From contig NC_088304.1 of assembly GCF_032854445.1 (NCBI RefSeq), positions 18,141,850-18,205,849 of the forward strand: a stretch of 64,000 bases of DNA, given 5' to 3'. Within the stretch, counting starts at the first letter, position 1. Every line of letters starts with the position of its first letter. Both the position numbers and the translations under genes were made by a program. Source of the DNA: Liolophura sinensis. Its lineage: Eukaryota > Mollusca > Polyplacophora > Chitonida > Chitonidae. A model generated the notes under the pieces. That model searched no databases. It saw only the letters and a list, made by a program, of their open reading frames with translations, and was not told where the DNA came from. Below are positions 2,502 to 63,471 of the stretch, piece by piece.

Positions 2502-3486
2502 ACTTCAGTTTCCTCAACTCACGAACGTGACCGCCGTTGTAATCAGCAAAAAAATCCTTAAGCACACCAGGTTAACATCAGTGAAATAAAATATATATGG
2601 CCTTAGATATAGGTTTAACAGCTCTTCAACCGATTTAAGCCCTTCTCCTTAACCCACTATACAGCAGAATGCATGGATTATGGACTCCGACACCTACAGG
2701 CATTTTTCTACACAGTTCCGCACTGATTATATAACTTCTACTTAAGATCAGCAAGGGTATAACCCTCCCAGTGTTAATACATTAACTTTACAGTAGCTCT
2801 GGTTAGACCAAGCTGCCTGTTTAATCTTCAAATCGAGCATTTTGCCTTCTAAGCCACAACAATGCATGGACTGGAAAATATTAGCTTAATATATTGTTCA
2901 TGACACAGGCAAATCGGCAAACATTCCTGTATAATCCGGATAAATCCCTCTATCCCTGCTTAAAATCGTTTATTTGGACTGTCGTGATTGGTTCCTGCGA
3001 AAACATACACACCGTTCCACTGGAATAAAGTGATATACACTTACTATACTAAAGTGAAGTGTACAGCCTACAGATTGGAACGCATTTCGACAAGGGAGCG
3101 AGGAATTTGTGAGCAGTTAGTTGGACGATCACTATTTCAACTTAACACCATATGCCAGTACCTGATTATTTTGTTATCAGGGATTTAGTTCTACTTTCAA
3201 ACCGGTTGTGCTTTTGATGAGTTTCCGATCTCCTTTATAGCGTGAACTTTTTCATGACTTGGATGTTTGTTTGTTGCAACAGTTTCCCACATGTAATTTA
3301 GTGATTATCATTCGTTGATTTCAGTATGTTTTCACTGGATACACATGTATTATCACAGCCGCGAAAGTGTTTGGTCATGATAAGGGTTAATCAGCGACAC
3401 CAGGTTACTAGAAAGGCGTGTTTTATCTCTTTCTGGGATTAACGGCGTTTCCCGTTACATTCGGAGACTGAGGCAGAATACGAGCG

Positions 3487-6400
3487 ATGAAAATGAACAG
3501 TTTCTTGTCTCGAAGCTGTGATAACTTTGGGACTGTCCTGAAAACGGACGGGAACCTTGGTCTGTGGCGTTACCCTACCAGAGGTCAGTATTACGTGAAC
3601 ATCAACGTGTTGTCCTTGAGAGGAGCTGTCAGCCTGGATGATGAGAGCTGGAGAGATTTGATTGCGAACCCTAAAGAAAGCAGTGACAGTGTGTACGAAC
3701 CCGTCACTCATATGAGCAGTCCACACTCCTATGTAAGGGAGTATGTCCCTGGTCTGCAACCGGAAATCTGGACTTACTCCTGCGAAGGCGTACATGGTCG
3801 GAGGGTAGAACAAATCCCCAGCAATGTTCACGATCAAGGTGCCCAGAGACGAGGAGCCTCTAAGCTTCTCCGTTCTTTGAAAAGATTCAAACACAAACTG
3901 ATGACATCAAAGTCGAAAAAAGGTGTCGAACCTTATACAAATGATGAGTGCAGTGGCTCCTACCATGAAATTCAAATCTGTACATCTAGCACCACACGTC
4001 ACAAAGACGACAAAATTCCCGAAATGGTCGATACCTGGGAGCAACGGAATGCCGGCACCAAACAGAGTTCCCAAAACCATCTCAGGAAAAGTGTAGAAAC
4101 AGCATTTGTTCACCAGTCGAACAAGGTAAATTGGCTATCGTCAAGACCAGAGATGTTGTCCTCCCCAGAGCCACGTTTTCCGTCAGAATGTCACACCTAT
4201 CCAGACATCATCAAATCGCACAGTGATCCAAGCAACCGCCGAGATGGACCAAGGAATGACAGCCATAGTATGCTGTGTGATAGTCACGCTGTCAGACAAT
4301 CTGACAATCAAAACACCAGACGAGGTCGGAAATGTAACCTAAAGCGACAGACAGTTATACGCATACCGTCCAATGACAAACTCTTGCACGCCAAACCGGG
4401 CCTCCAAGAAATGCAGTCGTTCAGGCAAGAAGTTCATCAACATACGTCCTCGTCGAACAAAGCAGTCCGTTGTGTAAGCGATTCAGTAATGCCAAGGGAC
4501 AGAGCTTCGTCGCACACAATCACCGATGCAACGTTGCAGTCAACGCCGTCTTCCAAAGATACTATAACGTCACCAAGAAATGAAGAGATTTCTGGGATGT
4601 ATAGTGCATTGTTTCCAGAAGGTAGAGACATGTATCAATCGAGAAGATTAATGTCGCCGTCGAAAATAACAGCGTCGCAATCTATCAAGGAAATGTCTCA
4701 ATCTAAACCACTGCCTATAACAAAAAGCACGTCATCTTCAACAAGAGTAATGTCTCCAAGAACGACAATGACTACAAATCCCACGTCTACCACCATGTCT
4801 CTGTCGAAAGAAACGATGTCGCCAAACTGCAGAAAAATAACCCAAACAACAAAAGCAGTGTCTCCAAATCGAAGAACACTACCTCCAACATGGGCAGTGT
4901 CTCCAACTAGAAGAACGCTATCTCCAACGAGGACAGTATCTCCTGCAACAGCAGTTTCCCCAACTAGGAGATCTACGTCTCCAAACAGGCGAGCATTGTC
5001 TCCATCGACAAGAACAGTATCGCCATCGAGAAGAATGTCACCTCCTCGAGTCATGTCTCCAACAATAACACCACTGTCTCCAACAAGAAGAACAATGTCT
5101 CCAAGCAGAGGAAGTATGTTTCAAATAAGAAACAAGTCTCCATCGAGAATAACAATGTCTCAAACGAGAAGAACAATTTCTCCAACCAGAACAATGTCTT
5201 CAACGAGAAGCACAATGTCTCCAACAAGAACAAGGTCTCCAACGAGAAGTGCCATGTCTCCAATGAAAAGCACAATGTCTCCAACAAGAAGAACAATGTC
5301 ACCAACAAGAGCAGTGCCTGTTGAAAGAGTGCTATCCCCAAGAAGAAGAACGATGTCTCCAAAGACCACACTGTCATCACCGTACGGAGCAATCTCTTCG
5401 GGGAACCCCTTCCCAGTACATTCCAGCATGCGTTTGAAAAACGGGAATGACGGTCAGATAAACATAAATTTGAATTCGGTCGACCGAAACGTGTGTTCCA
5501 AGACAGAATCAGGCCATGTGCATCTTGGTAGCCGACAAATAAACACCAGTTCTTCAGTTGATAACCAAGAGTATGGGAAAAGTGTCAGTCGACCGTGTAT
5601 ATCCGAGGGGCTTCAGGACACCGAGTTTAACTCTGGCTCGCCTCTGCACCGGACTCCCATTGATGATCGCGCAACTTCAGTCCTTCCCAGCTATCATAAA
5701 TCCATACTGAGAACAAAAACACTTCCTAAAACTTGGAGAATGGTCAACAATCTATATCCAGGTAAGACTATCGGAAGCTTGCAACAATCTATACCCAGGT
5801 TTAAACTACCGGAAACTTGCAGTAAAGCATATATCATTTACTGCTTTTGGTGTTCAACTGCGACTTTATAAATCAGCACCCACGAATAAAATAACAAAAA
5901 AAGAACAACGAAAAACGTCTTAACAATAACTTTATTGAACACAATGAAATTCCTGTTTTCTCCCTATGCATCAATAACTGAAAAACCTGACAAAAATTTT
6001 AAAAAAAAGCAAAAGTAAATACGCATTTCAGACAGGTAGAACTAAGTGCCGTGTTAAACATGTTAATCAGTGTCAAATAAACAAAAAAGTGATTAACTGG
6101 TCTAGATCATCATATTCTTCACCTGTGTTATTACATTTCAGGTCAAACATATCTATCAACCACTGAGGATCGCTGTGGGCATCACAGTGACAGACAACCA
6201 TCTTCAGCATCTTCAAGTGTCCAGAACAGCCACCTGATCAACCATTCTCGGTCTTACAGTCATTTGGATGGCTATCAACCTGGTTCCGGTGACCTCCAAT
6301 CGTCCATGATCAACTCCCAGTGGAATTCTCGTCATCCAAAGCCCAAGGTGTCCACTGGAGAGCCGAGCAGCACCGGTCGCAATGGGTACAGAGTTAGAGG

Positions 6401-8457: not shown

Positions 8458-11400
8458 TTAGTTTTCTACATCTATCTTGTCTTTCACTGTCAACTGTCTC
8501 TTAATTTCAAACAAAATTACTCCTGTGGCCACGCTATTGTTTAGACTCTCCACATTCATTGCCATGGGAACAACCACTGCTTGGCCGTAATTATCGAAAA
8601 CAGCTTTCTTAGCCTGAGGTGAGGGTCCCTCTGACTCGTTACTGACAACCAACACTGACGACGTCCTGCTGAAATCCACCTGGTGGTAAACGTTTGATGG
8701 TAGTTGTAGTCTTTTGAACAATGCTAGAGTGTGTCTGTCTCTGTACAGTGTTTTCTCATTGTTCGATCCTGAATCCATGTCAAAGTCCTCAGAGGCTTGC
8801 AGGGTGCCTTGGTCTAAAGCTCCTTTTGATGTGCTCTGCTCCAGTAGCTTCCTTAAGTCCTCTACCCGGAGTCTGCTCCTGTAATCCTTTGACTGGCGTA
8901 CTTTACCCACATCTGCCAAGCACACCATCGACTCGGCAGGGAAGTAGCTTACCACAGTCTCCCACTCTAGATTGTTAATTATGGGCACCCGGAAATGACA
9001 TCCTGCTCCTGAGCGCAGCACTTTTGGCTCCCAGATATCCACACAGCCTACAAAACAAACAACATTTAAGCACATAAAGGGTAACCTCAGCAAAGCAGTC
9101 ATACCAACAATACCAGCAATGAGATAGATGACAGGCAGTAGGAGAGATCAAACTTGTTTCATTCATATTTGTGTTCTCTCTTTTAAAAATATTCAAGTTC
9201 ACAAGAAAATTAACCTGGTTAATTAATTATTCACTTACATGTATATCTAATATTGTTTATATTTATTTGATGTAATTTTCTAGTCACTTTATTCCTTGTA
9301 CGTTCAAACATGCAATTTTTTGAAATAAAATCTAACCCTTGTATTCACTTGTCATGTACTTTGCTGAAAACCTAGAGGTGTATTTCACATTGGAGGCTAT
9401 TAAAATGAAAAAAACAAAACCTAAGAAATGAAGCAAGGCTAGTTGATAGCTGATCATTTATTTCTTACATTTTTTAAATACAGTCAATTCTATGGTGGGC
9501 TATATGAACCATATAACCTTGTGGGTATTCTGACCTCACAAGAAGTTTTCCCATTACAATTTTTCATTCTGGAATAATTCTCAAAAAAAGGTGAATGTAA
9601 AGAAAAGAAAAAGGTGATGTGACATCTTAGTGCCTTACCCCTGATAGTCCATAGTTCACCTTAAAATTCCAACACTTGACAAGAGTTTATTCAGTTAGAA
9701 AAAAATCAGCATATTTTTACAGACCATTTTCAATGGCCTTTTTTCTCATGCTGACTTTTCTATGCAACTTTTCCTTTAAATGGTTCTCCCGTAAGGGGGA
9801 AGGCCTGTCAGCGGATGGTTGTGGGCTTCTTCAGGCTCAGCCCGGTTTCCTCCCACCATAATGCTGGCCGCCGTCATATAAGTGAAATATTCTTGAGTAC
9901 AGCGTAAAACACCAATCAAATAAATAAATAAATCAATTAAATGGTTCTCCCCGATACCTTTTTTGATACAGATGTTCATAATTGTTGCACCACTAATAGC
10001 AACAACACCCATGTCTGCTGTCAATACCTTTTGTACAGAGGATTCGCTCACAACCCACGGCGGCTCCCACCCGAATGATGGTCCCCAGATTCCCTGGATC
10101 CCTGATGTTATCACACACCAGTGTCACCGGAATAACATCTGTCCTCTCCATGCTTATCTCCCCTTGATTAGGAATTTGAAATATACCTGTGAAATATGTA
10201 AGACTGTTTATACTGGTCTTGATGGGGCAAAGTTTTTAGGGACATTAACTATTCAAAAACAACACAGAGCATGTCTTCACAAAACCCCACTTGTAGATGA
10301 GAAAACATTCCCTAAAGTTTGTATTGAATGTTGTTGTTTTTACTTATTTGGTTCATGCATAAAAACATACAGAATCATTTTTGACTGGCCTGTGTGAGAG
10401 ATAAGCAAGTAAAGCATATGGCAAGCCTAAACTGAATTTTTGTAGCTATAGATGATTCATTCACGTGTGATCTAGGTTGCAGTGCTTAACCCAGGAAACC
10501 CCATCTCCACTGTCAACCAATCAGCCTTGATTCTGAACATAAGGTTAACCTGGGTGCCCCGAGGTTAAACTATCAACCTTTGGCAGGTTGCTGACGAACT
10601 TCGCAATGGGTGACAAATAAAAAACGCACACCATATTGAGGAAAGACAAAGGGGTTTCAACAGACGTTAGACTGCACAAATGGGCACAGGAATGCTGTGA
10701 AACCCTTCTTGTTAACAAATTCCCGAAAGTCCTGGACGAATTGCACATCCAAGTCATTCTTCTTGTTAAATTTATTTATTTATTTGATTGGTGTTTTAGG
10801 CCGTACTCATGAATATTTCACTTATACGACAGCAGCCAGCATTATGCTGGGTGGAAACCAGGCAGAGCCCAGGAGAAATCCGCAACCATCCGCAAGTTGC
10901 TGGCAGATCTTTCCACATACAACCGGAGAGGAAGCTAGCATGAGCTGGACTTGAAATCACAGCAACCAGATTGGTGAGAGACTCCTGGGACATTACACTG
11001 CGCTAGCGCGCTAACCAACTGAGCCGCAGAGGCCCCTCTTCTTGTTAAAAGGTTATGGTATAACAGTATTATAGCAATCCTCACCCATGACTCCTGGAGG
11101 TGTCACCAAATCTGACCATAGTTTTAGACTGTGATGCTGAACTTTGTATATTGGCACTTTTAAAGTGTCCATGGGAAGATCTTCCAATGCTTCTACTCTG
11201 CTGAAAAAAAGCATCTTCAGTACGGAGCCTGCCTCAACTGCATCTTTTATCAGACGACTGCCTTCCAGTAACATCTCCTTCTTCTTTTCTCGATGTTTGC
11301 GAGATTTTGCACACATCATAACAGGCCTGATAAAACATTATCAAAACACGATGCAATTAAATATTTGAAAAAAAAAAAAATGATGCAGAAAGTGAAACAG

Positions 11401-33132: not shown

Positions 33133-36100
33133 CTAAACATCGCTACACAAGGAGCCTGGGTGTGACGCCCTGTGGTGGCTGCGCCGTGGGGAGCTGTACC
33201 CACGCCAGTCCGTTTTGTTGTTCAGCCGGCTGTTGTTGTGAGCACTGCGTGACGGAGAACTCTCCGGGAGAGAGCCTGGTAATGTCTGTGAACCTTGTAA
33301 TTGGTATATATTACTTGCTCCGACTTCCCCACTCAGTTTGTCATTATCACTCAGCCTGGTTGTCTGGTACGCACTTCCCAACGCTGGGTCTTTATCACCA
33401 ACAGAAACGGCTAAACCTAGGGGGCGATGTTTAGCCTTTTTTGGCGAGGATTTATTGCTCCAAGATCCACTTCCTGACCTTGTTACTTTTCTACCTTTTC
33501 CCACAGAAGAGTTCTTGGGGCTAGGCTCTGTACAGTTGACATTTGGTTTACTGCAGTTGGTCCGGTTTTTTACCAGAGAGGAATCCTTTTTCTCCCATGG
33601 CCCAGGGCTAGTGCTATCTGACTGGCAGGATGCACAGCTACATTCTGACAGACAGATTTGTCCCTCTTGACTAAGTCGGGCAGGATTAAACACAGCAGGA
33701 TTCTCATTCTTATCCATGGTTTTGTTTGGTGAGCTTTGAGAATGGTGATAATTGACCAAGCTGTTGGAGTTTTGTCCCCTGTTTGGATTATCTCCCCTTG
33801 CTAAGGGTGAATCTGGTGGACATGTTTGTCCAGCTGACCCCTTCCTAACACTGGTCAAATGACTGGTATATGTACTAGAGCCTTCAGGATACTGACAGTC
33901 ACTTTTGATAACATTGTTAGACTTTCGTGGTTCACCGGTCTCTGAGCAAACGGAGGCCCACGAAAGACCAGAGTTGATCGAATTTGATCTGAAGTTGGGG
34001 AGCCTACTTTCAGGTCCAGCTGGAGAGAGAGGCGAGGCTGGAGTGTCGAAACTCTCCACGGGACTGTGCAAAAGGTTAGACAGACGGAACCGACGTCGAC
34101 GCTCCGAGACATCCAGCGCCCCCAGGGAAGTGTCAGTGCTATTATGACTAGGTTCAGAGGAGGTTACATTGACCTCTCTGGAGTCTGCATTTCCCAGTGT
34201 GGTCTGCTGAACAGAGCTAGTCTGGCTAAGACTGGTGTCAGGGGAGTATCCCTGCACCCCATTCAGCATCCGGCTCAGGACTGTGGGGTCCAGACTCTGT
34301 GACATGGAATCCACACCCGACGCCCCCTCCAGGTAATACGAGTTACGGGGACTGATGCTCTGTCGCACTATCTCCACACTGCCAGACTTGCGGATGCATC
34401 GTGGACCAAAGACATTGATCATGCTCTGTGGCAGGTCTTGGGCGGCTTCGGGCGCGGGTGTTCCAGAAGAAGGGCATGCATCCTGACGTCTTCTCGCTGC
34501 TGTACTGCGCAGAGCTCCTCTGCCGTGCCTCAGCTCGTCCTGGCTAGCACCACACGACACGTCTCTGAACAGTTCCTTGACACGTGTGTCTTCTCCTGAC
34601 CCCACCATATCCAGGGACCTCCCCTGACAACAGGCCTGGGTGCTGTCACATGGGTCTATGATATCCCCAGGAGGGACATGGGATTGGGGTAGAGCAGTCT
34701 CCCTCCTGGCGCGGCCTGCCACTGCCACTGACACAGGCAGGTAGCCAGGAGCAGTCTGTCCCTGATACGCTGGGGGCGGGTCTATCTGACCGGACAGAGT
34801 AAGTCCTCCACCATTACTGGTGGTGTTATTGTTGATGGCCTCGTAGGGCGGGGGCGGTTCCCCTGGGGCGATGTTGGAGGGTGGTTTGGGAGGTGAGTAT
34901 GGAGGCGGAGGGTCCTGGTAAGGGGGTACTGTCATTCCCAGGGGTGGAGCGTCAGGAAAGTACCGCTCATGGTCCACTTCATCCAAACGTCTCCGGGAAC
35001 TGTTCAGACCTGAAACACAACCACAGTCCTGTCACAAACTTGATCATCGACTTGCAATATAGTATGCATACAGTATGTAGTTTATTGTTGCACTCAAGAG
35101 CTTTCCACTTCTATAATGGCGGTTAGGTTTATGGGAGGATAAAACCACTCACCTCTGGCAAGCCACTGACAAAGTTTTCCAAAGTGTGACATACAGAAAC
35201 GTACATCATTCTGGTGGAACAAAAGTGGTCTCTGATGAATGTCAGGCTACGAGCATCATTGACCGCTGATTTTCACCAAGGAACCACTGACAGCGAGATT
35301 AACAGAATCCACAAATACCCTGTCCAAGCCCGGGATTGATCCAGCACCTCAAGTGACCTAGCACTTGAAAGACAAGCGTCTTAAACACATGACCACTACC
35401 CACTCCCTCCTCAACCACTATCCACGCCCACATTGACTGATTGGTAGGTGGAAGGACGGCATATGTTTGTCAATACAGGGTGTTAATACTCACGTCTGAC
35501 GGTCATCAACAAGCGTCGTTGTCGTAATTTATGGATCATGAAGAGCAGCAGTGCGAGGACAAGGAAGGATGTGATGGTGCTGGCCGCCAGCCTCAGGCCT
35601 AGGTTGGTGATTCCACCAGTGGTCGGATCTGGTAACAACAATAACAACATCAATACATCTGACCCATGGCTCAAACTATATATATATGAATGAATTATTT
35701 ACCAATATCTTGATAAAGGATACAAGGAAAGGCACTACAAAACAGTGAGTATGGCTTTTCAGAAAATGAACACATGCAAAAAAAAAAACATGAAAATAAA
35801 ATTCATCTCTAAGGCATATTTTACATTTCTTAATAACTGTCAATTTCTTGCTTATTTTCCTTCAGTGGTCGGCATTCAGAAATGACATCATCGACTAACA
35901 TACTGGGAATGCAGGACAAGCTTAGCGGCCCGCTTTCTGGCTCTGCCCTCAACAAAGTTGTTGACGTCACCACAGCAGACTACTTCATTTCCAGAGTTAG
36001 AAGAACTGTGGTTAAAAGCCATTTTTGTGCAACAAGAAGAAAGCTAAGGAGCTCTTTTCTGCACTTTGTATTTTAGGCCACATCATATACTCTGTTTTAC

Positions 36101-39100
36101 GAAAAAAACCCAAAAAACAAAACCAAGCGTTTCATGTAACCTTGAAGGCTATAAAATGAAATGCAGGAAATATATCACCCAGCTAACCAATATGAGCTTA
36201 TTTACACCTAAATGATTTATAGAGGAATGTCCATTACACTCAGCAAAAGTGCACACAATCAGGTCACTGATTATTGATTAAAATCAAAGGACATAAATGA
36301 ATACATGAATGACAGATTACTTTACAGTACTACAGATGCAGGCACTACTTGTACCATTTACACATTATCAAGAGGAATGCCAGTTGCCATGACTGTATAT
36401 CGCTGATTTGAAATTATGTTTATTTCTCTGATTGGTGATTTATCTGAAATTATGTGTACATTTCCTATATCAACACCAATGATGTATTTTCCCGGTGTCA
36501 AGTATACAAAATGCATCTGAATTTACATCGGGGCTAAGGCCACATCAATTTAAATTACTGTTTTCCAGGCAGAATAAATCTTTTTCCAATGTCAGAGCAG
36601 GGTATAAAAATAAAAATAAAACTTAAAAATCCTGTAATCTGTGGGAAATGTGCACTTTTTTTTTTTTTTGAAGACATATCTTCATGATCAATAAGATTTG
36701 CAAAACTGAAAAAATCATAAAAAAAACTCCAGACTGGACAATACATAAGGAGATTTTTCAGTGTTATTTTCATTGAAATTTTTCAGTGTTGGCTTGCCCG
36801 TAAAACACAAAATAAAACTAGTGTCGTCTTATGCAAAAATGAAAATGAGTACAGCACACTTTCTGGAAATGAGTACAGCACATATTCTGGAAAAATGTAC
36901 AGCACATATTCCGGAAAAGTGTACAGCACATATTACAGCACATATTCTGGAAATGAGTACAGCACATGTTCTGGAAATGAGTACAGCACATGTTCTGGAA
37001 ATGAGTACAGCACATGTTCTGGAAAGGCGTACAGCACATGTTCTGGAAATGAGTACAGCACATGTTCTGGAAATGCATATAGCACATGTTCTGGAAAGGA
37101 TTACAGCACATGTTCTGGAAATGAGTACAGCGCATATTCTGGAAATGAGTACAGCACATGTTCTAGAAATGAGTACAGCAAATGTTCTGGAAATGAGTAC
37201 ATCACATGTTCTAGAAATGAGCACATCACATGTTCTCGAAATGAGTACAGCAAATGTTCTGGAAATGAGTACATCACATGTTCTAGAAATGAGCACATCA
37301 CTTGTTCTCGAAATGAGTACAGCAAATGTTCTGGAAATGAGTACAGCACATGTTCTGGAAAGAAGTAAAGCACATGTTCTGGAAATGAGTACAGCACATG
37401 TTCTGGAAATGAGTACAGCGCATATTCTGGATATGAGTACATCACATGTTCTAGAAATGAGTACATCACATGTTCTAGAAATGAGTACATCACATGTTCT
37501 AGAAATGAGTACAGCACATGTTCTGGAAATGAGTACAGCACATGTTCTGGAAAGAAGTAAAGCACATGTTCTGGAAAGGAGTACGTAATGTCCATAAAAT
37601 GTCACCAGTTTGCTCCTCAAACTGTATGGTTTATCAGGTCTATGCAATTAGTGAATTACATTTAATGTACTATACACTGTACTCCTGTTACACCTCTGGA
37701 GGAATATTACTGTAACCACAGCATAAACAATACATGCAATCCATGTTTTTGACATGTGGTTTAGGGTATCAGAAATGTACACAAGCACGTACATGTAAAC
37801 ACAAATTACACATCCACCACAGATCATCATGCATCATCAACATTGTGTCGTTGACACGGGTAATGTGCATCATGACTCTAGTGAATGCTCAATGTTTATT
37901 ATTATTATTACATTAGCTGGCTAAACCCTGGTACACATAATCACCTAAGCAACAATCACACCCTTGCAGACAGACAGCAGATTCTCCACAAGCAAATCTA
38001 GCCACAAAACCCTCTAGGCCATATATCTACACCCTTACATATGTAAATCATAATGAGCAGGACTGTGTCTCAGTCAGCGTAACAGACAGCTTCTGCTAGA
38101 CAACTGATAAAGCTCTTAATAATTAATCTCCAGTCGTCTGATGAGTCTTGAACTCTTTCAGTCTTGGGTTAATATGTACGTAAGTCAAGGGGTACAGGTC
38201 CTTTGAAGCTCCTGGGGCATTAGCTGTCTAATAACACCATGTATTACAGCTTTACAATACACCATGTATTACAGCTTTATAACACATCACATATTACAGC
38301 TTTATAATACACCATGTATTACAGCTTCATATTACACCATGCATTACAGCTTTATAATACACCACATATTACAGCTTTATAATACACCATGTATTACAGC
38401 TTTACAATACACCCCATTTTACAGCTTTATAATACACCATGTATTACAGCTTTATAATACACCATGCATTACAGCTTTATAATACACCATGTATTACAGC
38501 TTTATAATACACCATGCATTACGGCTTTAAAATACACCTCATATAACAGCTTTATAATACACCACATATTACAGCTTTATAATACACCATGTATTACAGC
38601 TTTACAATACACCCCATTTTACAGCTTTATAATACACCATGTATTACAGCTTTATAATACACCATGCATTACAGCTTTATAATACACCATGTATTACAGC
38701 TTTATAATACACCATGCATTACGGCTTTAAAATACACCTCATATTACAGCTTTATAATATGCCACATATTACAGCTTTGTAATACACCACGTCCTCTTTC
38801 TGAATATACACACACACACATACACAATGCAAAAATGCAACCTTTACCTGTTGCTGGACTACCAGAGTAGGCATTATTATATATGGCGTAACAAACCCAA
38901 CAAAGTTTGACAAGTAAGGCAGATAAAAGTGATCAAAATTTACTTTTGATGCTGAAATGTGATTTTTTTTGCAAAAGGATATCATTCTACATTCCAAATA
39001 TTCTTCTGAGATCAAAACATCTTTCTAAGATTAAAAGAGCTAACATAATCAGAGAAATTCTGCCACTAAGTCATGCACAAAATTTTAGGTTATGTACCAG

Positions 39101-41869
39101 TTTGCAGAGCTAGCCATGAAGACTGGCACATCCTATCCAAATAGACAAAGTATCATCAGCAAAGAGTTAAGGCACAATTATTTTTACAGGTACATGTAAA
39201 ACCATGCTTTATATGGTACCTGGAGATCCAAGCATCTGTTGGAACGTTCATGGATACACCAAATTTCAATAATTACAGACCTCAGATTAGCTAATCTCAA
39301 TAATTACAGACCTCAGACTAGCTAATCTCAATAATTACAGACCTCAGACCAGCTAATCCCGAAATGTTTTGAATCATACTAACCATTTACTGATGCTCCA
39401 TCTTATCAAAATAATCAAAGCAATATTATTTTTATTAACACATTTGTAGAATTTTAGACTAACCTGACCTGAAAGAGTACACATATATATAGAATTCTTG
39501 GCCCTTAAATACATGTACAAAGTCAAGAAAAGGTTTAAATGACAATCACTCAAGCGTGTTAATGCACATGGCTGCCAAATGACCCTTGACAACTGTTATA
39601 TCAGAAGCCTTCGCCCATACATCAAGTTTCAATAGCTGTCAAAATTAGCAGAGAAGGAAGTGCTTACTCCAGGCACAGAGCACTTGCTGCTTGAATGATA
39701 AACACACATCTATGGATTAAACAAATAATGGCAAAGTGGTCTTTCAAAGTTTAAAGATTTTTTTTAATGTTGACATTCTGATTCCCTGTGGAAGTAGGAA
39801 GTGGGAGGGTTATCAAGTCTGTGTCACAATTCAACAAATGATCTCAAAAACTACTTTCCCAACTCACAAAAGCAGTAAGAAGCACTTTAATTTTCATTTA
39901 ACATTTTTCATAGTGCTGGCTTTGAAATCCACTCATGGGAAAAACTCCATCTTTGGCACCTATGAACATCAATTGTCCAACACATATTAACCTTGGTTAT
40001 CCTGCACAATTGCATGTAATACTTTCTGCTATAATGCCTTTCTAATTTGGTTTGATTAACCTACTGGTGTTTAACACTGAAGTCAGGAATATTTCACAAA
40101 TGACATTGGTTAGTGAAAAAAACACAAGGTTATGACAAGACACTAGAAAACTTTTTCACAAGAGATGCGCAGACTTTGATCTGCACAGAAACCTCAATGT
40201 GCATGTCATATTTATGATATCGGTGAAAAACCCACCTGCCTGTATAAACAGCCCAGTGAGAGCTGTGCAACACTTAATGCCACCATGGTCCTAAAATTCT
40301 AAATATTACTGGAGGCAGGGAAAATAGAAAATGATCCCAAGACGAGTAAAAACTACTTGGCCGTGATCTCCCAAATGAAAGAACTCTAAAACTGCAGAAT
40401 CCATTTACCCATCCATGATTATGACAAGAAGTAAAGACAGTCCTGTCTTCCCAAGAAAAGGAACAGGTAATGATAGATGCAAAATTGTTGAGGAACACGT
40501 AAACAATTTTACCTAGGCCCCCTGTAACTTTACACATAAGATGTATTTTCTGTGCTACTTGTGAATTCCGTGAATCAGCCACTGCAATCAGCCATGGAAA
40601 CTTGCGGAGATGTCAAGCATTCTATATTCTGTTCATTTACAGTTTTTGACTAGTTATTCTTAAGACTAGCTTTAAGCGGCATGCAAGCCGAACTACATGT
40701 ACTTATATTTCAAGGGACAGATGTATGGCTGCAAGCGATGCACCATAGCCAACTGGTCGCCAACTTTATATGACACGGTACCTTCTGGACGTGCTCTGTT
40801 TGCACCCTTGGTGCCCTGATTTTCAGGTTGGATGGTATTGTTTGAACTATCGTACAGCAGGGTGCTTAGCTGGTGAAAATACATGAGAAATTATTTGATT
40901 TAAAGTTAGTCATATAATTTCACCTGATTTTTTACCAAACAGGGTGACTGGTAGGTGAAAATTTTCAGAAAATTACAGCCAGTTTACCTGTGTAAAGTTC
41001 TTACCTATAGTGCGTGTTCCACCTGTACCGTTGTGGCCAGGTGGCCTGGTGCCCGTGGGGGAGTTGTCCAGGCAGACAAACTCGCAGCATTTGCCCTCAA
41101 TGGCCTTGTGTATGCAAGCTGGGGGTGAACATGACACTGCAGTACACATGATTGAGAAGCCGTCCTCACAGTGACATGTCTGGCAAGGGTCCTTCTTGTC
41201 CGGGATGAACTGAGTCCCATCAGGTACAATATTTCCCTCAGCATCATGACAGTCCAGCTTATTACTACCTGTCTCACCTGGCGACAGAAAATGAGAATTC
41301 ATAAAATCAACACCTCTTGAAACATGTACCATACCAAGGCCCGTATTTATCAAACTTCTTAAGAGTACTTGATAAACAGGGGCCCTGGTATATATTTTTG
41401 CTTGTTTTTTGGCTTCCAATTTCTATGTCTCGAATATAACTGCAAGCTTAGTACCCTGCTTCTTTACAGTATTTCTATGGGTAAACAGTACTGCATTCAC
41501 TTTACCAGGTGAGAAGATTGGCAGAATTTTCTGCAAATAATCCAAAGCTTACCACACTATGATGTAAAGAAAACAACAAACAAAGAAAGCAGACATCGAA
41601 CACAGATATGATTCACCTTTCCTTCCATCCTTCTATGTTTACATATACAGGTATTATAGTCAAATATGATACACGTACGGGTACATATTGTACAGAATGA
41701 AGTTGTGATTGACCGTAAGAGGCAAGGATTTCACAGATTTCACCGAAAATCGCAAGCTAAATAAGTAATCAGGATCAATCTCACCTCGACACGTACTAAT
41801 CCAGATCATGGTGAAGAAGAATACGACAGTCAGGCCTCTTCGCCAGGGCTGCATTTGCCTGGTTACCAT
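33133..41869 (-). CDS. Single-pass membrane protein with VWFC ectodomain and PPxY-rich tail
   Basis: Four exons (41869-41785, 41277-41005, 35628-35494, 35009-33133), all in phase 1, give 789 residues. The ATG follows an in-frame TAG two codons upstream. Residues 1-28 are a signal peptide (LTVVFFFTMIWISTC). Residues about 29-119 hold one VWFC domain with ten Cys, including CQTCHC and CCEFVC. Residues about 129-151 form the membrane helix (TITSFLVLALLLFMI), followed by a basic stop-transfer (HKLRQRRLL). The tail, about 635 residues, is Ser/Asn-rich. Near the membrane it has PPPPYSPP, PPPPYEAI and PPPAYQG, PPxY-type ligands for WW domains such as those of NEDD4-class ligases. The layout recalls DGCR2/IDD (VWFC, membrane helix, PPxY) without its LDLR-A and lectin parts; that link is tentative. 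Exon 2's acceptor has a second option 9 bases later, removing three residues. Confidence 0.88.
36840..37590. repeat. 24-base minisatellite, about 30 copies, open on both strands
   Basis: The unit is GAAATGAGTACAGCACATGT plus TCTG, with variants ACATCACATGTTCTAG and ACAGCAAATG. Because 24 is a multiple of three and the unit lacks stops in several frames, long open frames appear on both strands (MSTAHVLE on one, ISRTCAVL on the other). It lies in an intron of the VWFC membrane-protein gene, so I do not call coding. Confidence 0.95.
38233..38800. repeat. 25-base minisatellite with a 200-base higher-order period
   Basis: The basic unit is ACAGCTTTATAATACACCAT plus GTATT. Variants (CATATAACAG, CCCATTTTACAG, GGCTTTAAAATACACCTC) recur in the same order every eight units, about 200 bases, with at least two full super-units. 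It lies in the large intron of the VWFC membrane-protein gene. Confidence 0.93.
39277..39360. repeat. 31-base tandem array, about 3 copies
   Basis: AATAATTACAGACCTCAGAC then TAGCTAATCTC is repeated with single-base changes. Confidence 0.9.
40067..40112 (-). mobile_element. SINE family A tail remnant (weak)
   Basis: CTGGTGTTTAACACTGAAGT followed by CAGGAATATTTCAC resembles the inverted 3' end of the family. It is short and decayed. Confidence 0.45.
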
Positions 41870-45800: not shown

Positions 45801-48800
45801 GCACTCGCAGCTCCCCATTAATGTTCAAACTGTTTCTGCATGTAAATGCCACGTATTGGTTGGTCATTGGCCTACCGGGTTAGATAGAAACCCAAAGATG
45901 TATTGTTTTGATACCGATGCATCTACTGTTGGAAAACGTCAAATTCTACCCCTCAACTGACCCACCCCACTGCAATAAACCGTTGCTCTACACCAGGCTG
46001 TCATATGCTACGAGTCAGAGTATAACTTTAATAGAGCGCTACGAGCGCATCATTGTGATCTTCCCTTTCACCAGGATAAAGCATAGCAAGTTGACGGGGC
46101 TACCTAGAATGTCCAGGCTATCCCTAGAATTGTGCTAGGTTTCAATGTTTTTGCTCATGAATTAAATTTAAATGTTTGAACACTAAGGTGGTCTGTGTGA
46201 TCCATGTTTATTGGTCTGGCATAGACGTCACATGAATTTTCATTTAACTTTGTTGTGTAATATGCCCTTATACAAAGAGTTATTGTGACTAAAACGGAGA
46301 GCCAAAATGAAAGTCTTGTGACAGCATCTGTACCCAGCATTGTTCCTAAAGCCTACCTGTGAATTGAAACATCTGAATGCAGGATCATGCAATTAAATTA
46401 CACGTAGTTTTCAATGGGTGAGTTTAATTACATGTATGGTGTCTTTTCCTATTCCATGGTTAATTTGAGAGCTAAGTATTATAATGGTTTTCTCCTCCTA
46501 TACATGTAATTTATGGAGTTGAATTTCACATTTCAACTCAAACAGTCCGGCCTAACCTTTCCAAGCAGTGGCCATACAACCTACTGTTAACCTAACTCTT
46601 GCTCTTTGGATATCATATACATGTTCACTATTGTAACAGTGCTTGTGCATCAGTTGCTGTGTTATATAACAAACTCTCATGTTTTTTGCTTATGATTACA
46701 GTGCATCAATTGCGGCATTGGGCGACATCATCTCTCAAGCTCTCTTTCCCAGTCCTCACACAAAACACAGGTTTTGGTGGAGAAGTACATTTGCATATGC
46801 AACATTTGGGTGAGTTTATTTGTGTTCAGCAATCTGGTGATTGATTTACAAATACATATTCTGTAGTTTAGTGAGGTATTTACCTGTACATATATGGAGG
46901 TTTATCGCTTACCTGCCTCGATTCAGTAGTTTCCTCCTGGAGGTTTGCAACATCTTTGAGACGTCTATCACCTGGTGAGGTGCAGTGGTTTCCTTTTGGA
47001 GATCTGTCACCTGGTGAGGTGCAGTGGTTTTCTTTTGGAGAGGTCTGTCACATGGTGAGGTGCAATGGTTTCCTTTTAGAGCTCTGTCACGTGGTGAGGT
47101 GCACTGGTTTTCTTTTGGAGAGGTCTGTCACCTGGTGAGGTGCAGTGGTTTTCTTCTGGAGAGGTCTGTCACATGGTGAGGTGCAGTGGTTTTCTTTTGT
47201 AGAGGTCTGTCACGTGGTGAGGTGCAGTGGTTTTCTTTTGGAGCTCTGTCACCTGGTGAGGTACAGTGGTTTTTTTTTAGTAGATCTGTCACCTGGGGAA
47301 GTGCAGTGGTTCCCTTTTGGAGGTTTTTCATATACCTGGTGAGTTGGAGTGCTCTTCTTTTGAACTCTGCTCAGAAGGCTCCATTCCTTTATAACCTCAT
47401 CATCGCACTTAGAAAAATGTCTAAATGGCCAATCAGATAAATAAAAATAATTTATTTCCTTTCAGTTTTCTTTTTAATGGACCCCTGATTCACCATTTCT
47501 ACATCTGGCTAGACAAACTGGTACCTGCTGGTAAGAAGCCTGGCACTGGTATAAAGCGCGTCCTGTTTGACAGACTCATCCTCGCTCCTCCATACCTGCT
47601 TCTCTTCTTCTATGTGGTGGCCATTTTGGAGGTGAGTGTGTACACGGAGTAAAACAGGCCTGAGACATTGGGGAAGGGTATTGTCCTCCTCCTGCCCCCC
47701 TCCCATGCCCCTCCCATTCACAAGTGGGTGGCTTGAGTTCCACCTTACCTCACCTATAATTTTCTGGGACATTCATTCCACAGGGCCTCCGTGGCTCAGT
47801 CGGTTAGCGCGCTAGCACAGCATAATGACCCCGAAGCCTCTCACCAATGCAATTGCTGTGAGTTCAAGTCCAGCTCAAGCTGGCTGCCTCTCCGGCCGTA
47901 CATGGGAAGGTCTACCAGCAACCTGCGAATGGGCGGGGGTTTCCCCCGGGCTCCACCCACCATAATGCTGGCCGCTGTCGTATAAGTGAAATATGGGGTA
48001 TGGGGTAAAGTACCAGTCAGATAAGTAAGTCATTCCACTTGCCTTCTTATGTACCTCCATGTGTTTATGTGCTCCACTTGGATTTTCCTGTGTATGTGTT
48101 TCACTTGGATTTTCCTGTGTATATGTTTATGTGCTTCACTTGGATTTTCCTGTGTGTGTTTATGTGCTTCACTTGGATTTTCCTGTGTGTGTTTATGTGC
48201 TTCACTTGGATTTTCCTGTGTATGTGTTTATGTGCTTCACTTGGATTTTCCTGTGTATGTGTTTCACTTGGATTTTCCTGCGTGTTTGTGTTTCACTTGG
48301 ATATTCCTGTGTATGTGTTGGATATTCTGGCTTACATGTTTACGTGTTTCACTTGGATATTCCTGTGTGTTTGTGTTTCACTTGGATATTCCTGTGTGTT
48401 TGTGTTTCACTTGGATATTCCTGTGTGTTTGTGTTTCACTTGCATATTCTGGCTTACATGTTTACGTGTTTCACTTGCATATTCCTGTGTATGTGTTTAT
48501 GGGTTTCACTTGGATATTCTGGCTTACATGTTTACATGTTTCACTTGGATATTCCTGTACATGTGTTTCACTTGGATATTCTGGCTTACATGTTTATGTG
48601 TTTCACTTGCCTATTCCTGTGTTTGTGTTTATGTGTTTCACTTGCATATTCTGGCTTACATGTTTACGTGTTTCACTTGGATATTCATGTGTATGTGTTT
48701 CGCTTGGATATTCTGGCTTACATGTTTATGTGTTTCACTTGGATATTCCTGTGTATGTGTTTATGGGTTTCACTTGGATATTCTGGCTTACATGTTTACA

Positions 48801-50077
48801 TGTTTCACTTGGATATTCCTGTATATGTGTTTCACTTGGATATTCTGGTTTACATGTTTATGTGTTTCACTTGCATATTCCTGTGTATGTGTTTATGTGT
48901 TTCACTTGGATACTCTGGCTTACATGTTTATGTGTTTCACTTGCATATTCCTGTGTATGTGTTTTTGTGTTTCACTTGCATATTCTGGCTTACATGTTTA
49001 CATGTTTCACTTTGATATTTCTGTATATGTGTTTCACTTGATATTCTGGCTTACATGTTTATGTGTTTCACTTGCATATTCCTGTGTATGTGTTTTTGTG
49101 TTTCACTTGCATATTCTGGCTTACATGTTTACATCTTTCACTTGGACATTCTTGTGTAAAATGTCTACATGTACACTTTCTCTGACAGGGCCTCGGGTCA
49201 GATGTGGCCATACAGAAAATTCGGGATACCTTCTGGACAGCTCTGAAGATGAACTGGAGAATCTGGACTGTATTTCAGTACATCAATGTCAACTATGTGC
49301 CTCTTCAGGTAAGTCACTCAGATAGCTGTGCTTTTTTCAGCCAAGTCTTGGTTTAAAGTGTGAACTGCCAGCTTCCTCCAGTCAAATAAATAAATGAATG
49401 TAAACAGGTGTAAGCCAGTCTGTTGTAAGTTTATCTCATTAGGGGTTTTGTTTTAAACTTACAGATGCTTAAAAGATATTACCTTACTACACCTAATGCC
49501 TTGCCTCAAGCAGAATTCGATATAAGAAAAGGCACAGTGATGTTAATTGCCTTAGGGCTATCTCAAGTACTATTTGATGGCAAGACAAAGAGGATTCAAG
49601 ACTTAGAATAAACATGATAGGAGGAAATCATGATAGGAGAAAATCGTAATAGGAGGAAATCATGATAGGAGGAAATCGTAATAGGAGGAAATCATGATAG
49701 GAGGAAATCGTAATAGGAGGAAATCATGACAGGAGGAAATCGTGATCATATTACAAGGTCAATTTTACAATGGACATAAGGAAAGATTAATTTAATTATA
49801 TTATTAATTTATTTTATTGGAGTTTCATGTGGAAAAGGTGTATAAGTAGAATATAAGGTAATAATTTAGAAAGATGAATGGAAATATGTACATTTAGCAA
49901 GGTTGGATCTTAGATGATGCAATCCCAGATGAAGCGAAACAAACTTTTGTTTGAGTGTTGTACTGTGCATGTAAATGAAGCCAATCTGTTCTTTTCCAGT
50001 ATCGAGTGTTGGTCACGAACATGGTGTCACTGATCTGGACAGTGTACATCGCTGCTAAAAGGAGGCATGACGCCTGA
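42874..50077 (+). CDS. PXMP2: PXMP2, peroxisomal membrane protein 2 (Mpv17/PMP22 family)
   Basis: Five exons (42874-42977, 46702-46809, 47466-47631, 49189-49308, 50000-50077) join in phase to 191 residues, against 195 in human PXMP2. The N-terminal QKRPVLTKAVTSASIAALGD matches the family's first helix region, with GFLFNGPLIHHFYIWLDK in the middle. The C-terminal signature runs MNWRIWTVFQYINVNYVPLQ, then YRVLVTNMVSLIWTVYIA. Four membrane helices are expected. The vertebrate protein forms a pore for small metabolites in the peroxisomal membrane. The spacing of NYVPLQ and YRVLV fits PXMP2 better than MPV17. Intron 1 is 3.7 kb. Introns 2 and 3 carry minisatellites, and intron 3 also a full SINE. 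No frame damage was seen. Confidence 0.95.
45439..45730. repeat. 60-base tandem array, about 5 copies
   Basis: The unit holds TCGGTAACATGTGGTAACAG, TCATGCAGTTTTTCAATTAG and CACAGTTCTAGGCTTCAT. It lies in PXMP2 intron 1. Copies differ mainly in the GGTAAnGTAnGGTAA segment. Confidence 0.92.
45767..45792. other. Perfect 10-base stem-loop
   Basis: GATTTCACCT and AGGTGAAATC flank the loop AGCGGA just after the 60-base array, in PXMP2 intron 1. Role unknown. Confidence 0.5.
46963..47340. repeat. 41-base minisatellite, about 9 copies
   Basis: The unit has CTGTCACCTGGTGAGGTGCA and GTGGTTTTCTTTTGGAGAGG. It lies in PXMP2 intron 2. Each unit carries a GGTGAG that looks like a 5' splice site, an oddity for an array so near exon 3. 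Confidence 0.92.
47782..48029 (+). mobile_element. SINE family A, full tRNA head
   Basis: TCATTCCAC lies at 47773-47781 and 48030-48038 as a target duplication. The head GGGCCTCCGTGGCTCAGTCG, then GTTAGCGCGC, is intact, as is the B box region GAGTTCAAGTCCAGCTC. The tail is short, CAGTCAGATAAGTAAG. It lies in PXMP2 intron 3. Confidence 0.95.
48055..49165. repeat. 1.1-kb minisatellite, mixed 30-36-base units
   Basis: Units pair GTTTCACTTGGATATTCCTG with TGTATGTGTTTATGT, or with GCTTACATGTTTACGT after GGATATTCTG. Three forward frames are open across most of it because the units rarely contain stops. It ends about 25 bases before PXMP2 exon 4. Confidence 0.93.
49617..49745. repeat. 16-base array, alternating unit pair, about 8 copies
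   Basis: ATGATAGGAGGAAATC and GTAATAGGAGGAAATC alternate, giving a 32-base second-order period. It lies in PXMP2 intron 4. Confidence 0.93.
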
Positions 50078-57235: not shown

Positions 57236-58568
57236 TTTACTGAAGGTTGTGAGGGCAACTATCATACAATTGTAAGGATTTTTGATATTGGCAAAGATCT
57301 ATATACCTGTAGTATAATGCATTTCTTCAGCAGTTGCAATGAATACAATAAGTTGGCAAACCACTGCATGGTGAGTGAAACTGACATGAAACTGACACTG
57401 AGATAACTGACGTCAATAAAGGCGATTGCGGAGGAACATTTACCTGTTACATGCACTTATCTACAAAGCTTAGATTTCAATCCCAGGTGACTGTATAAAG
57501 AATTCCCCGCTATCACTAACACTGTGTTACAGTTTTTATGGTACATGTATGTTTTGGTTCTGAACAATAATCTGGACAACATTTTTTCGCGGTTAAAACA
57601 TACACATAAAACCATCTTAACTTGGGGATGAAATTAAGGTTATATTCCAACTGCTTACTGACTGTCAATAGTTAAATATGCCTGTAGTTTTAATCTTGTC
57701 AAAGAGGAGAGAATTTGAAGTTTGAAGTCTTAGTGAAAATTAAATACCTACATGTACAAAAAAATTCAAATACCATATTCAGGTTAAGCTCGGAAGTAAA
57801 TGGCAAAAGAACATAATCTCAAATCCAAGGGGACATAACTTCTGTGAGCAGAACAGAAGAACTATAGCAGAGAAACTGTATATAAGAGTTGTTCAGTTGG
57901 AAGCTTGGCTTCCTCAAAACAAACAAAAGGCCAGAAACACTGCATACATGTATCCTATCCTTTTACAAACTTTATATAAAATTTACAACACGTTCTTACA
58001 ATGTTTGTGATAAACAAAAGAGTAATATATTAATTATCTCCTCCTTCATGGAGTGAAAGCACAGGAAAATCTCATCACAATAGAACAGTTGCCATGACAA
58101 CACAACCGCCATGCTGAATCCATGTCACATGATCATGATGTCCAAAACTACTAGTTTCCTAGAATGGCTTCAAAATTGGTCTTCAAAATTTTTCAATAGC
58201 AACCAAACAACATAAATCCATACCAACAGTTCGGGTTTTTGAAAGGTTCCAAAAGTCCCCAAAAAGTATCTAATCTGGTATGGATGCTGTCAACATTTCA
58301 AGCTGCTCTAGGTGCAGAGTTTAGTGATACTCAGCATCATTTACAAGTGACCAGTCTTACAGTAGCAAAAACAAATGATGATTTCAACTGTGTCTGATCA
58401 AGTGACATTTACCGAACTATATGAAGCACATTCATGACATTTTTGCACTAAGGGGCTGTCATCACATTACCAGCGCTGGTCCAATACAGCAACGGGTGTA
58501 GTAATAATATCATGTGAACATTTGCAAATGACCCTTTAATGGTTTATGTGTTCATGGCACTGTCATGT

Positions 58569-58740
58569 TCACCGGCGACTGTAGATGTCATAACTCCAGC
58601 TTCTGTTGCGAGTACGGCTGCGACTGCGGCTGTGAAATCGTGGCCTGCTTGGGGAGCGTGACCCTCCATATGACCCGCTGCTCAGGGAACTGGGTGACGG
58701 GGGAGTGGGGCGATAATAGGGCACGGGGCGTTTTCGAGCA
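58569..58740 (-). CDS. Far terminal exon: second half of the eMIC domain
   Basis: The acceptor CTGTCTTTTGTTTCAG is followed by T, which completes the split AG-T serine codon. It encodes ARKRPVPYYRPTPPSPSSLS, then SGSYGGSRSPSRPRF, then SRSRSRTRNRSWSYDIYSRR and a TGA at 58569-58571. The first part is the conserved core of the eMIC; the Arg/Ser tail is shorter than in vertebrate SRRM4. It lies about 3.5 kb beyond the near terminal exon, so its use depends on skipping that exon and its cleavage site. Confidence 0.92.
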
Positions 58741-61700
58741 CTGAAACAAAAGACAGAAGGGTGAGATTAGGCACATGCATATACTCAGGTACTTTTATAT
58801 AAATATAAAATATGTAATTAATAGGTAGAAGATGAAACATATGGCAAAATAAAGAGTTACCAATCAGCTAACTGTTTTCATTGTACAGATCTAAGAATGT
58901 AAGTGGTAAACAGTATTATCTGCTAGGAAACACTAATTCTTTCTGAGACAAATTTGCTCCTGAATTTGTTTCCCATATTTATTACTAATAATCTTACATT
59001 TCACTGGTGTTATTAAGCGTTTGGATATTAAATGACAATTATATTCAAAAAGAATTACAGCACAAGTACCTTGACACATACCAACAATCCCAACAAGGTA
59101 GTTAAAATTTGCATAATTTGTCGGAAGAATTTTTCCTGAATTTTATAGAATACATTAAAAATCTTTAAAATACATTTCATCCACTCAACTAGTAGAACAG
59201 AAGAACATAATATCCACATGTTACAGTTCGTATGTTAGTACATACAAGGCAGCATGAAAACCAAATAACATCATCCCCATGTTAAAAAGTTCTTAGTCAC
59301 AAATGTGAATGAAGTCAAAAACCCCAATTCTTACTAAAATACAGGTCACGTAAGTTTCTGCAAGAATTGTATAATATGGATTCTATTTGCAAAAGCTATG
59401 CATGCAGTAGTTAAATGCAAGACAATATTTACACACCATATTGAAAACAAAAAAATTCAACCAAAATCCACAACCATTAGAGAAGCACAATCCTGCCAGT
59501 AGAAATGTCATTTTAGTTACCAAGCACCGGTCACCCTGGGACGGAAAATAATGTCAAGCTGACAAAACTAAAGTTAGTAGTGATGATGTGATCATGTTTG
59601 TGAGCCGTCCTATACAAGCAACACCAGTTTTTGCAAGCATTCACAAAATGTACCTCGCCTCTTTCACAAAAACTAGGATCTAGCACATGTAAATATCCCA
59701 CAAGATGGTGCTCCCACCCTTCGCTATTAAAAAAAAAAAAGTCTCCTTTATACATACAAATGTAATTTAATTATTGAACAAACAAGTTGGCCTGGATATT
59801 AATCTGGTCATGTATACGCCCTGATCAACAATTTGAAAATTCATGTACTATGAGACAACTTGAGATTTGATGTCTCAACTTTCGGATCAGTCACGTACCC
59901 TTTTGGCCTGTTATAACATGCCCTTTATACTACCTACACGTATACATTTCCCATACTGTTTGAATGCCTACTTGTACCACTATGAGTTTAACTACGGATA
60001 CATGAGTACACATGTAAAAAACATACAGCCCAAGGGCTGTGAAATGGGCCTATTGCTCTTCTTCTATTTTTCTTGTAACTAATGACCAATTGTCTTATGG
60101 TACAATTCATTGGTCTTCTCCACCCACAAAGGGCCTATCAGTTATTCTGTCTGCCTTGACCTCAAAGAGAATGCACTGCACCAGAACGTCATATTATGAT
60201 AAACTGTAAGATTGTACACATTTCCTGAAATTTTTTTGCAACTAAGTCATTACTATTTCTATTTGTTCAGTTAGTGTGAGCATGAAAATCTTCATTATTT
60301 GTACCACTGCGGTGTGTGGCAACAGATCAAATCAACATATCGTAATACATGTTTTGGCCCTTATATTGTATAGTTGTATCTCAACAGTACAATTATGGCA
60401 AGGATTATAAAACACATGTACAATCTCTGAACGTTCGATCGTTTCAGGATCAATTTTTCCTCACATACAGCAAACATAATTAACAGCTCAATCCACAAAT
60501 TAACAGATAACTTCTTCAACAGACAATGAAAACCTTTGTATAATAAGTTTGCTGGCATTCGCGCAATTAGGAAGATCAACTATTGGGCAGTAACCCAAGG
60601 GGTCAAGCAGTGCTACAGATGATTTTCAGATGTAACGCGGTACTCACTACTTTTCCAAGAGAGGAAGCACTGGATAAACCTACCGCAGTACACACTTTTT
60701 GAAAATACTTTTGAGAACACTTCACTATTCTGGGTCCTCAGCAATACACCTGCACAGTGTAAAGTTGACTGAGTGAAGTGGACAGAGAAAATCGAAAGGC
60801 ATACATGTGCATACATGTATAGGCCTACATAGACCTACCACCTCGGAGATTCTTGTACCTACATACATGTATAGGACTACAACTACATCTACATGTCGAT
60901 TGCCCAGAATTATGACTTGTCATAACATTCTAGAATTAATTAATTAATTATTTCAGCTCTTCACGAGGAATGAATCTGATCTCATAGGCCTACATTTATT
61001 TATTACACCTCAACCTGTAGGCCTCCTGGGTTTATTCCAATAACTCACTCGCTGACAACTTTACCTTTTTGTTTTGTTTTGATAGCTGGGGTTGCAGTAT
61101 TATTTCATTCTATGGATACTTGCCTAACGTGACTGGGAATTTTTTTTTATTTTTTTACCTGTCGAAACATTTCTGTATACACGAACATCTGCCGTTTTCG
61201 GATCGAAACATGGTGCACTTGTTATGATAAATCCAAATGGTGGGTAGTGGTTCATGAGCCTTTGCTGTAACCTTCAGTTTCTGAAAAGTAACACGTCGTG
61301 GAGAGCATTGTGCAGGTAAACTACTTTGGTGATCCACTTTCGATTTTGTCAGGGCTGTTTGCTTTCAATCTCGCATGTTCGCTATATCTTTCAGGAATTT
61401 AGGCGTACACACATATCGTCATGCAAATTCAGTTTGTTTTAATATTAGAGAAGTATCATCTAATTTTCAACGCATTTACCCCTGCACGTCCCTTATCTGT
61501 AGCACTGGAGTCAAGGTCAAATGGCATTTCCACCATCTGATAACTTCTACGTTCTTTATTTTCACCATTTCGGTGACTAACAAAGCACTCGATTGCCAAA
61601 AGGTGGGCCTAAATATTATTAGAAGCTATTAAATACATGAACGTAGGCTACCTTACATGGTGTAAATCTTTTCGCTACACACACTACCACAGGCAATCAA

Positions 61701-63471
61701 AGTACCGACTGGTATGTGACATTTACCCGCACGATCCTCAAAATAGCGCAAGCCCATTCGATAAACTTTCGTGGCATGAAACCAAACAAATAATAAATGA
61801 GAGGACGACTCCAAACATCATTAAAATTTTTGTTCAATGCATAATCATAACATATAAATCCCAAGAAAACAATGAAGAAAATATCACAAAAGCGGAACTA
61901 CTTCTAGCAATTTCTTCAAAGGTCTATAATGGGCCTCTGGCGATTCTCACCAACAGACCCACACAGAGGGCTCCACATGGAAGCAGATGAAGTGATTTGG
62001 GTTTATCTCAGCTGAAGCTCACACAACTCTTTATGCAGTCCAACAAAAATTCAGAAAATATATGACAGCTATATCATGAACATATCAGTGTTAAAGAGCA
62101 ACCAAAACTCCCCTGTTAGTTGTTTTTACTTTTAGGCAGTAAGTAACTGAATGGTCAGTAACTTTGTAAAATGGAAGATTAGTAAATCTAGTTAATGGCA
62201 CCATGATTAAATAGGAAGCAAACTCTCAAATCTTCAAAAATGTACCATGTTGAGTTTCTTTTTCTTTCAGGCTTTTTTAAAATCAATAACGATCTCTGGA
62301 AGATCTCCGGGAGCGGTAATGAGCTGGTGACCTTGACCTTCGTTGACGTGGTGATTGGGAATACTGTCTGCGTCTGTCTCTGTTCACTGACCTTGACCTT
62401 GACCTTTATCACCAAGGTCACGAGTGAAGTGGGGGTAGAGAGAGCAGGAAAAGAGACAAAAAATAAAAATAAACTCATAAACAAAAACAAGACGTGAAAA
62501 AAGGCAACAAAAATTGAAGACCAGAAACAACCAAACAAACAACGAGTGAAAAAACAAAGTGAAAAAATTCAACCATAATGGCAGCGCACAGGTGGTACAA
62601 TAAATACACCTTATAACGATTCACAAACAATACATATACATGTAAATGATACAGCATAACAAAAGGTTCACCATTATAAATCACAACACTCAATTATTTT
62701 ACCCGACAGCCTTAGTTGAGGAAATTGTAATACTGTATCATGTACATGACCTTCAACAACAACTGTGTTCTTAATGTTTCCTTTATTCACATGAACATTC
62801 GTAGATTCACACTCCTAAATTTAATTTCACCAATGCGGTGGCTGTGAGTTTATGTACAGTTTATGCTGGCTTCCTCTCTAGCCATATGTGTGAAGGTCTT
62901 ACAGCAATCTGCTGGTCTTCTCCCTCCATAATGCTTGCTGCCGTCATATAAGTGAAATATTCTCTAGTAAGGTGTAAAACACCAATCAAATAAATAAATA
63001 AATCAGTGGAGTTGGTCACTAAAAACTATAACCATAAAAAATTCATAAAAAATGTTTTCTAGTGTATATTCATAAATACTATCACTCCTCCAGGTTTCAG
63101 CTGTCACCCATGGGTTGCCTCTATAAAACACCATCAAATAGGACTTGGGCTAAGTGTGACACCTGTGGATTCTCCAAGACAAGCCTTCCTACCTGGTTAT
63201 CCTCCTCTTATCCAGGTGACTTGGCGAGCCTCTGCGGCGCCTGATGGATGGGCTGCGCGACCCTCGGCTCCTGGGCGAAGTCTTGCTGTGACTGGCACTA
63301 CGAGATCGCTCCCGGCTGTAGCTCCTCCTGTGGCTGCGAGATCGGGATCTTTTGCGGCGCTTCTCAGGCGAATATGATTTGGAGCGTTTGCGGCGCTTCT
63401 CGGGCGAGTATGATTTGGAGCGTTTGCGGCGCTTGGATGAGGGAGAGTAGGAAAGAGATCGACTCCTGCTC
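58569..63471 (-). CDS. 3' end of an Srrm2/3/4-type splicing factor with eMIC domain (partial)
   Basis: The visible exons are a shared RS exon (63471-63193), an alternative near terminal exon (62403-62283) and a far terminal exon (58740-58569). The shared exon begins in phase 2, so more exons lie beyond the right edge. Joined to the far exon, it gives SPSHLDKRRIT then SARKRPVPYYRP, which aligns with the vertebrate SRRM3/SRRM4 eMIC (I recall DSPSHLEARRITSARKRPIP and YYRPSP). In those proteins the eMIC is needed to include neural microexons of 3-27 bases. Non-vertebrate bilaterians are reported to keep one ancestral Srrm234 gene that makes eMIC-plus and eMIC-minus forms by alternative 3' ends, and this locus has that structure. 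The protein acts in the nucleus with the spliceosome. The N-terminal cwf21-type region is not in the window. Confidence 0.9.
62283..62403 (-). CDS. Near alternative terminal exon: RS tail without eMIC
   Basis: The acceptor GTGATAAAG, behind a C/T-rich tract (CTCTCTCTACCCCCACTTCA), leads into a phase that fits the shared exon: AG plus G makes Arg. It then reads SRSRSVNRDRRRQYSQSPRQ, RRSRSPAHYRSRRSSRDRY and a stop. The RS content and exact phase argue that this is a real exon. Its first bases are a hexamer repeat (GTCAAG three times), giving alternative in-phase AG acceptors 6 bases apart. Confidence 0.8.
62833..63005 (+). mobile_element. SINE family A, 5'-truncated
   Basis: It begins at CCAATGCGGTGGCTGTGAGT and ends ACACCAATCAAATAAATAAA. 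It lies between the shared RS exon and the near terminal exon of the Srrm2/3/4-type gene, antisense to it. Confidence 0.88.
63193..63471 (-). CDS. Shared RS-rich exon carrying the first half of the eMIC
   Basis: The acceptor is ATCTATACACAG. The exon encodes SRSRSLSYSPSS, two repeats of KRRKRSKSYSPE and a third partial one, then RSRSRSHRRSYSRERSRSAS and RGSRSPSIRRRRGSPSHLDK, RRIT, with AG left over before GTAGGAAG. SPSHLDKRRIT is the conserved eMIC start. If the intron is kept, the next codons are AGG TAG, so an unspliced message ends one residue later. Confidence 0.92.

Follow-up and report, generated by a model that had tools for sequence, protein, structure and literature searches.

The minus strand of the window, by which we mean the whole stretch of 64,000 nucleotides of Liolophura sinensis DNA that was analysed, carries an arginine- and serine-rich (RS-rich) coding exon and, downstream of it, two frames that can each close the same protein. 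These features, together with the candidate signals and acceptors that bear on the choice between the two ends, are as follows.

63193 to 63471, minus strand: shared RS-rich penultimate coding exon, carrying the N-terminal part of SRRM_C/eMIC and ending in a split AG codon (SRRM_C profile and splice sites)
62404 to 62603, minus strand: T-rich stretch ahead of the proximal acceptor, a candidate Elav/Hu target by inference from T count and UUUNUUU motifs
62283 to 62403, minus strand: probable proximal alternative terminal exon, coding part and stop, with a 40-residue RS tail (phase and RS content; weak acceptor)
61555 to 61560, minus strand: AATAAA, the first such hexamer past the RS stop and a candidate proximal poly-A signal (consensus match only)
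59516 to 59535, minus strand: candidate short proximal end, RVTGAW and stop (matrix score only)
58569 to 58740, minus strand: distal alternative terminal exon, coding part and stop, completing the eMIC with SARKRPVPYYRP and a tail (SRRM_C profile positions 56-67)
58535 to 58540, minus strand: ATTAAA, a candidate poly-A signal about 30 nt past the eMIC stop (consensus match only)

The shared exon (63471-63193, 279 nt) is read in the frame SRSRSLSYSP...SPSHLDKRRIT followed by AG, after which comes a 5' splice site. This donor, at 63192 (CAG/GTAGGA), scores 5.17 and stands at the 99.5th percentile among minus-strand GT sites, and the acceptor before 63471 lies at the 98.3rd percentile of the 3706 minus-strand AG sites; splice sites were scored throughout with a rough, self-made consensus matrix, and percentiles and ranks express the matrix score only. 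If the exon is read on without splicing, it yields ITR and then a TAG within the first four intron bases. Both the reading of the frame and a comparison of R+S content place an RS-rich region ahead of the eMIC. G+C content is 51% in the proximal and 61% in the distal terminal exon, against 36% in the sequence separating the exons. Re-reading the sequence and translating the frames reproduced the coordinates, phase and peptides given in an earlier sequence-only reading of this DNA. The shared exon also holds a 36-bp tandem repeat (63351-63434, minus strand; 2.3 copies, 95% matches) that codes for repeated units of the KRSKSYSPEKRR type. Between the shared and RS exons lies a dispersed repeat (62822-63005), which is presumably similar to a Meta-SINE-like element of marine invertebrates; with an E limit of 1e-3, blastn recovered 14 other matches to it in the window, some of which are probably parts of one copy.

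The frame entered at 58740 on the minus strand reads SARKRPVPYYRPTPPSPSSLSSGSYGGSRSPSRPRFHSRSRSRTRNRSWSYDIYSRR, with 57 residues and a stop at 58571-58569. It accepts the split-AG phase of the shared exon, and the donor sits inside the eMIC-coding region. Joined, the two exons code for a product that covers positions 5-67 of the 67-position Pfam profile SRRM_C (PF15230, curated cut-off 27 bits) with 56.2 bits and E 5.4e-15; positions 55 and 56 of the profile lie on opposite sides of the exon junction. Submitted singly, the shared exon covers positions 4-55 with 29.5 bits; the distal exon covers positions 56-67 with 16.8 bits, under the cut-off. The profile thus runs across the predicted junction, and the eMIC is assembled from both exons, so that the RS form retains its first part. 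The RS form scores 22.8 bits, below the cut-off, as do shared exons joined to shuffled tails (18.9-24.0 bits for the five submitted of ten made); a non-matching tail lowers the SRRM_C score of the shared exon. The AG ahead of 58740 reaches the 98.7th percentile of the same 3706 sites and, as an acceptor, ranks third of the 256 AGs in the interval from donor to distal exon.

The eMIC identity, which the earlier reading had proposed without a database search, is now backed by this match of the joined form, and the membership of the C-terminus in the family is directly established, as are the two frames and their common phase. SRRM3 and SRRM4 are, we assume, members of PF15230. According to its family description, SRRM_C models SRRM C-termini in general, and a match does not discriminate between the paralogues. 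A sequence search of solved structures (E up to 1) returned no relatives for the eMIC form, with two chance-like matches (best E 0.36), and no matches for the RS form. The eMIC end of the locus is regarded as firm.

The proximal frame, entered at 62403 on the minus strand, reads RSRSRSVNRDRRRQYSQSPRQRRSRSPAHYRSRRSSRDRY and stays open, in the same phase as the distal frame, up to a stop at 62285-62283. Its composition was compared with that of the window by treating every AG of either strand as if it were an acceptor in the split-AG phase, which gave 7212 sites with a frame closing within 1200 nt. Among the 1302 such frames of at least 35 residues it has the highest R+S fraction (0.65), a measure that was picked after the RS frame had already been seen. 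The best 14 of the 691 minus-strand frames by R+S all lie within the shared, RS or distal exon, and the plus-strand maximum is 0.38 (611 frames). The acceptor is weak, at the 54.6th percentile of the 3706 minus-strand AG sites and 106th of the 256 AGs in the donor-to-distal-exon interval, and the exact proximal end is consequently less certain than the distal one. Its AG is the first after approximately 70 nt of AG-free, largely pyrimidine-rich sequence. Two neighbouring AGs, at 62397 and 62391, keep the RS frame and were rejected on their lower scores; the fourth AG of the cluster, which would open an exon at 62386, was set aside as well (66 residues, not RS-rich, acceptor at the 32.5th percentile). 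Folding of the RS exon revealed no unusual stability (z 1.22; 181 of 200 shuffled sequences equalled or exceeded its stability). Besides the AATAAA listed above, an AGTAAA at 62130 on the minus strand lies downstream of the RS stop; candidate signals thus follow either stop, but such hexamers are common in the analysed sequence. On balance we lean towards a terminal proximal exon starting at 62403. Where the sequence-only reading had proposed two competing 3' ends, the distal frame, the phase and the SRRM_C match bear it out, but the exact position of the proximal end is less secure given the rank of its acceptor.

Ahead of the proximal acceptor, the 100 nt running downwards from 62558 on the minus strand contain 65 T and are the T-richest 100 nt of the window on either strand (the next separate stretch has 56), an observation made post hoc and in a position where polypyrimidine tracts are expected anyway. 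The fit of this tract with an Elav/Hu target is suggestive. Five UUUNUUU motifs occur in the 200 nt from 62603 to 62404; their density was dropped as a mark of the proximal exon, other places in the window being denser, with as many as 10 (a count that includes hits overlapping within T runs).

Elsewhere in the window, a Pfam scan covering 10 of the 41 listed open frames found a SpoU rRNA methylase domain (8458-9147, minus strand; E 5.7e-10) and, slightly under its cut-off of 27.6 bits, a von Willebrand type C domain (40973-41422, minus strand; 27.0 bits). The frame at 36749-37588 (plus strand) scored 52.5 bits for Fibrinogen_BP (cut-off 50; E 3.3e-14) and also hit five families below their cut-offs; these matches probably arise through repeats, and the opposite strand of this segment has a long open frame as well. 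Three long open frames, measured from stop to stop, matched nothing in Pfam with an E limit of 0.01: 3472-5871 (plus strand, 799 codons), 33133-35031 (minus strand, 632 codons) and 48009-49325 (plus strand, 438 codons). Rfam at gathering scores gave nothing in the window, and a viral-contig scan produced 382 pattern matches, none of which was confirmed as a relative.

The weakness of the 62403 acceptor raises the question of whether the distal form could be real and the RS frame no exon, with the non-eMIC form arising instead through retention of the intron, where the TAG within its first four bases would end the protein after ITR, or through a tiny exon. The two highest-ranking of the 256 AGs in the donor-to-distal-exon interval are those at 59535 (first) and 59723 (second), which score above both the 58740 and the 62403 acceptors; in the required phase the former yields RVTGAW and a stop, and the latter a 64-residue frame without RS character. 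The six residues added at 59535 recall the proximal exon of the fly, which adds four. The AGGTCA repeats that make up the start of the RS frame could in addition be a simple-sequence run, as the window has three minus-strand copies of AGGTCAAGGTCA, one starting two bases before the RS exon and two inside it. Set against these points are the top RS fraction among 1302 frames, the G+C content of 51% compared with 36% on both sides of the exon, and the long AG-free, pyrimidine-rich stretch that precedes the frame, and we consider it distinctly unlikely that 62403 opens no exon.

The RS exon could also be internal rather than terminal, being included or skipped ahead of a single distal poly-A site and acting as a poison exon, as is done by fly isoform G. 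Such an exon would need a donor of its own, and between 62403 and 58300 none scores at least 6 on the rough matrix; the shared donor itself reaches only 5.17, however, and a usable donor may have been missed at this threshold. An internal RS exon is unlikely in our judgement, though slightly less so than the absence of any exon at 62403; these two readings divide between them the probability not given to a terminal exon at 62403. That the locus is a dedicated paralogue of the vertebrate Srrm3 or Srrm4 type, with a vestigial RS exon, would be compatible with a profile that does not separate the paralogues, but the RS frame is open as far as its stop and the fly study assigns nonvertebrate eMIC control to Srrm234 (PMC8797185); we regard a dedicated paralogue as highly improbable.

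We consider it very probable that an invertebrate Srrm234 (Srrm2/3/4-type) gene has its 3' end here, with a choice of an eMIC or a non-eMIC end. The upstream part of such a gene, with the N-terminal cwf21 domain (PF08312) that would be expected there, lies outside the window. The two-ended 3' architecture is the same as that published for Drosophila Srrm234 (CG7971), in which the last exon that supplies the eMIC is a distal alternative one, used in neurons and dependent on Elav (PMC8797185, Torres-Mendez et al. 2022). The same report states that, among the fly proteins tested, only those with a complete eMIC promoted short neural exons, that Elav and Fne promote skipping of the proximal exon and use of the distal poly-A site, and that both are good candidates for eMIC control back to bilaterian ancestors. 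In both the chiton and the fly, the donor common to both ends lies within the eMIC-coding region and is followed by a distal eMIC last exon and by a proximal non-eMIC one, in the chiton a probable one. The one difference to be seen is in the proximal tail, with four residues in fly isoforms A and G but, if the 62403 exon is real, 40 RS-rich residues in the chiton. The C-terminus resembles that of vertebrate SRRM3 and SRRM4 in matching SRRM_C over positions 5-67 of 67; unlike these vertebrate genes, where eMIC is controlled through transcription of dedicated genes (PMC8797185), the eMIC here would presumably be controlled by the choice of last exon. A review gives a distal eMIC last exon and several isoforms from one gene end as the ancestral bilaterian SRRM234 state (PMC10551640); the present locus, with its distal eMIC last exon and the possibility of multiple isoforms, is like it, and the term "ancestral" applied to the locus in the earlier reading is consistent with that statement. 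PMC12992808 is in agreement on an early bilaterian origin of the eMIC. The arrangement has already been described in flies, and the present locus adds one more instance of a known system.

As the anatomy of the locus is the same as that of Drosophila Srrm234, we infer the same switch. The single shared donor at 63192 would be spliced to either the proximal or the distal last exon, and the proximal choice, most likely at 62403, would give a splicing protein of the general RS-rich kind whose eMIC is incomplete. By analogy with the known system, the distal choice at 58740 would complete the eMIC and may promote inclusion of short neural exons via U2AF and SF1, and it would be expected in neurons, where Elav/Hu proteins may repress both the proximal exon and the poly-A site that goes with it. 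The transcripts themselves, their neural bias, the control by Elav and the activity on microexons are thus predictions from this shared anatomy. More tentatively, the non-eMIC form may be more than a fly-like truncation: the switch would then swap two functional C-termini, one of them a distinct 40-residue RS tail, and the exceptional U-rich tract would be an ancestral Elav/Hu switch, an extension that we hold to be possible but rather doubtful.

The locus provides a readable example outside the flies of how one splicing-factor gene may yield general and neural forms, with the elements of the switch lying within less than 5 kb, and it would be of use for asking whether Elav/Hu control of the eMIC dates to bilaterian ancestors.
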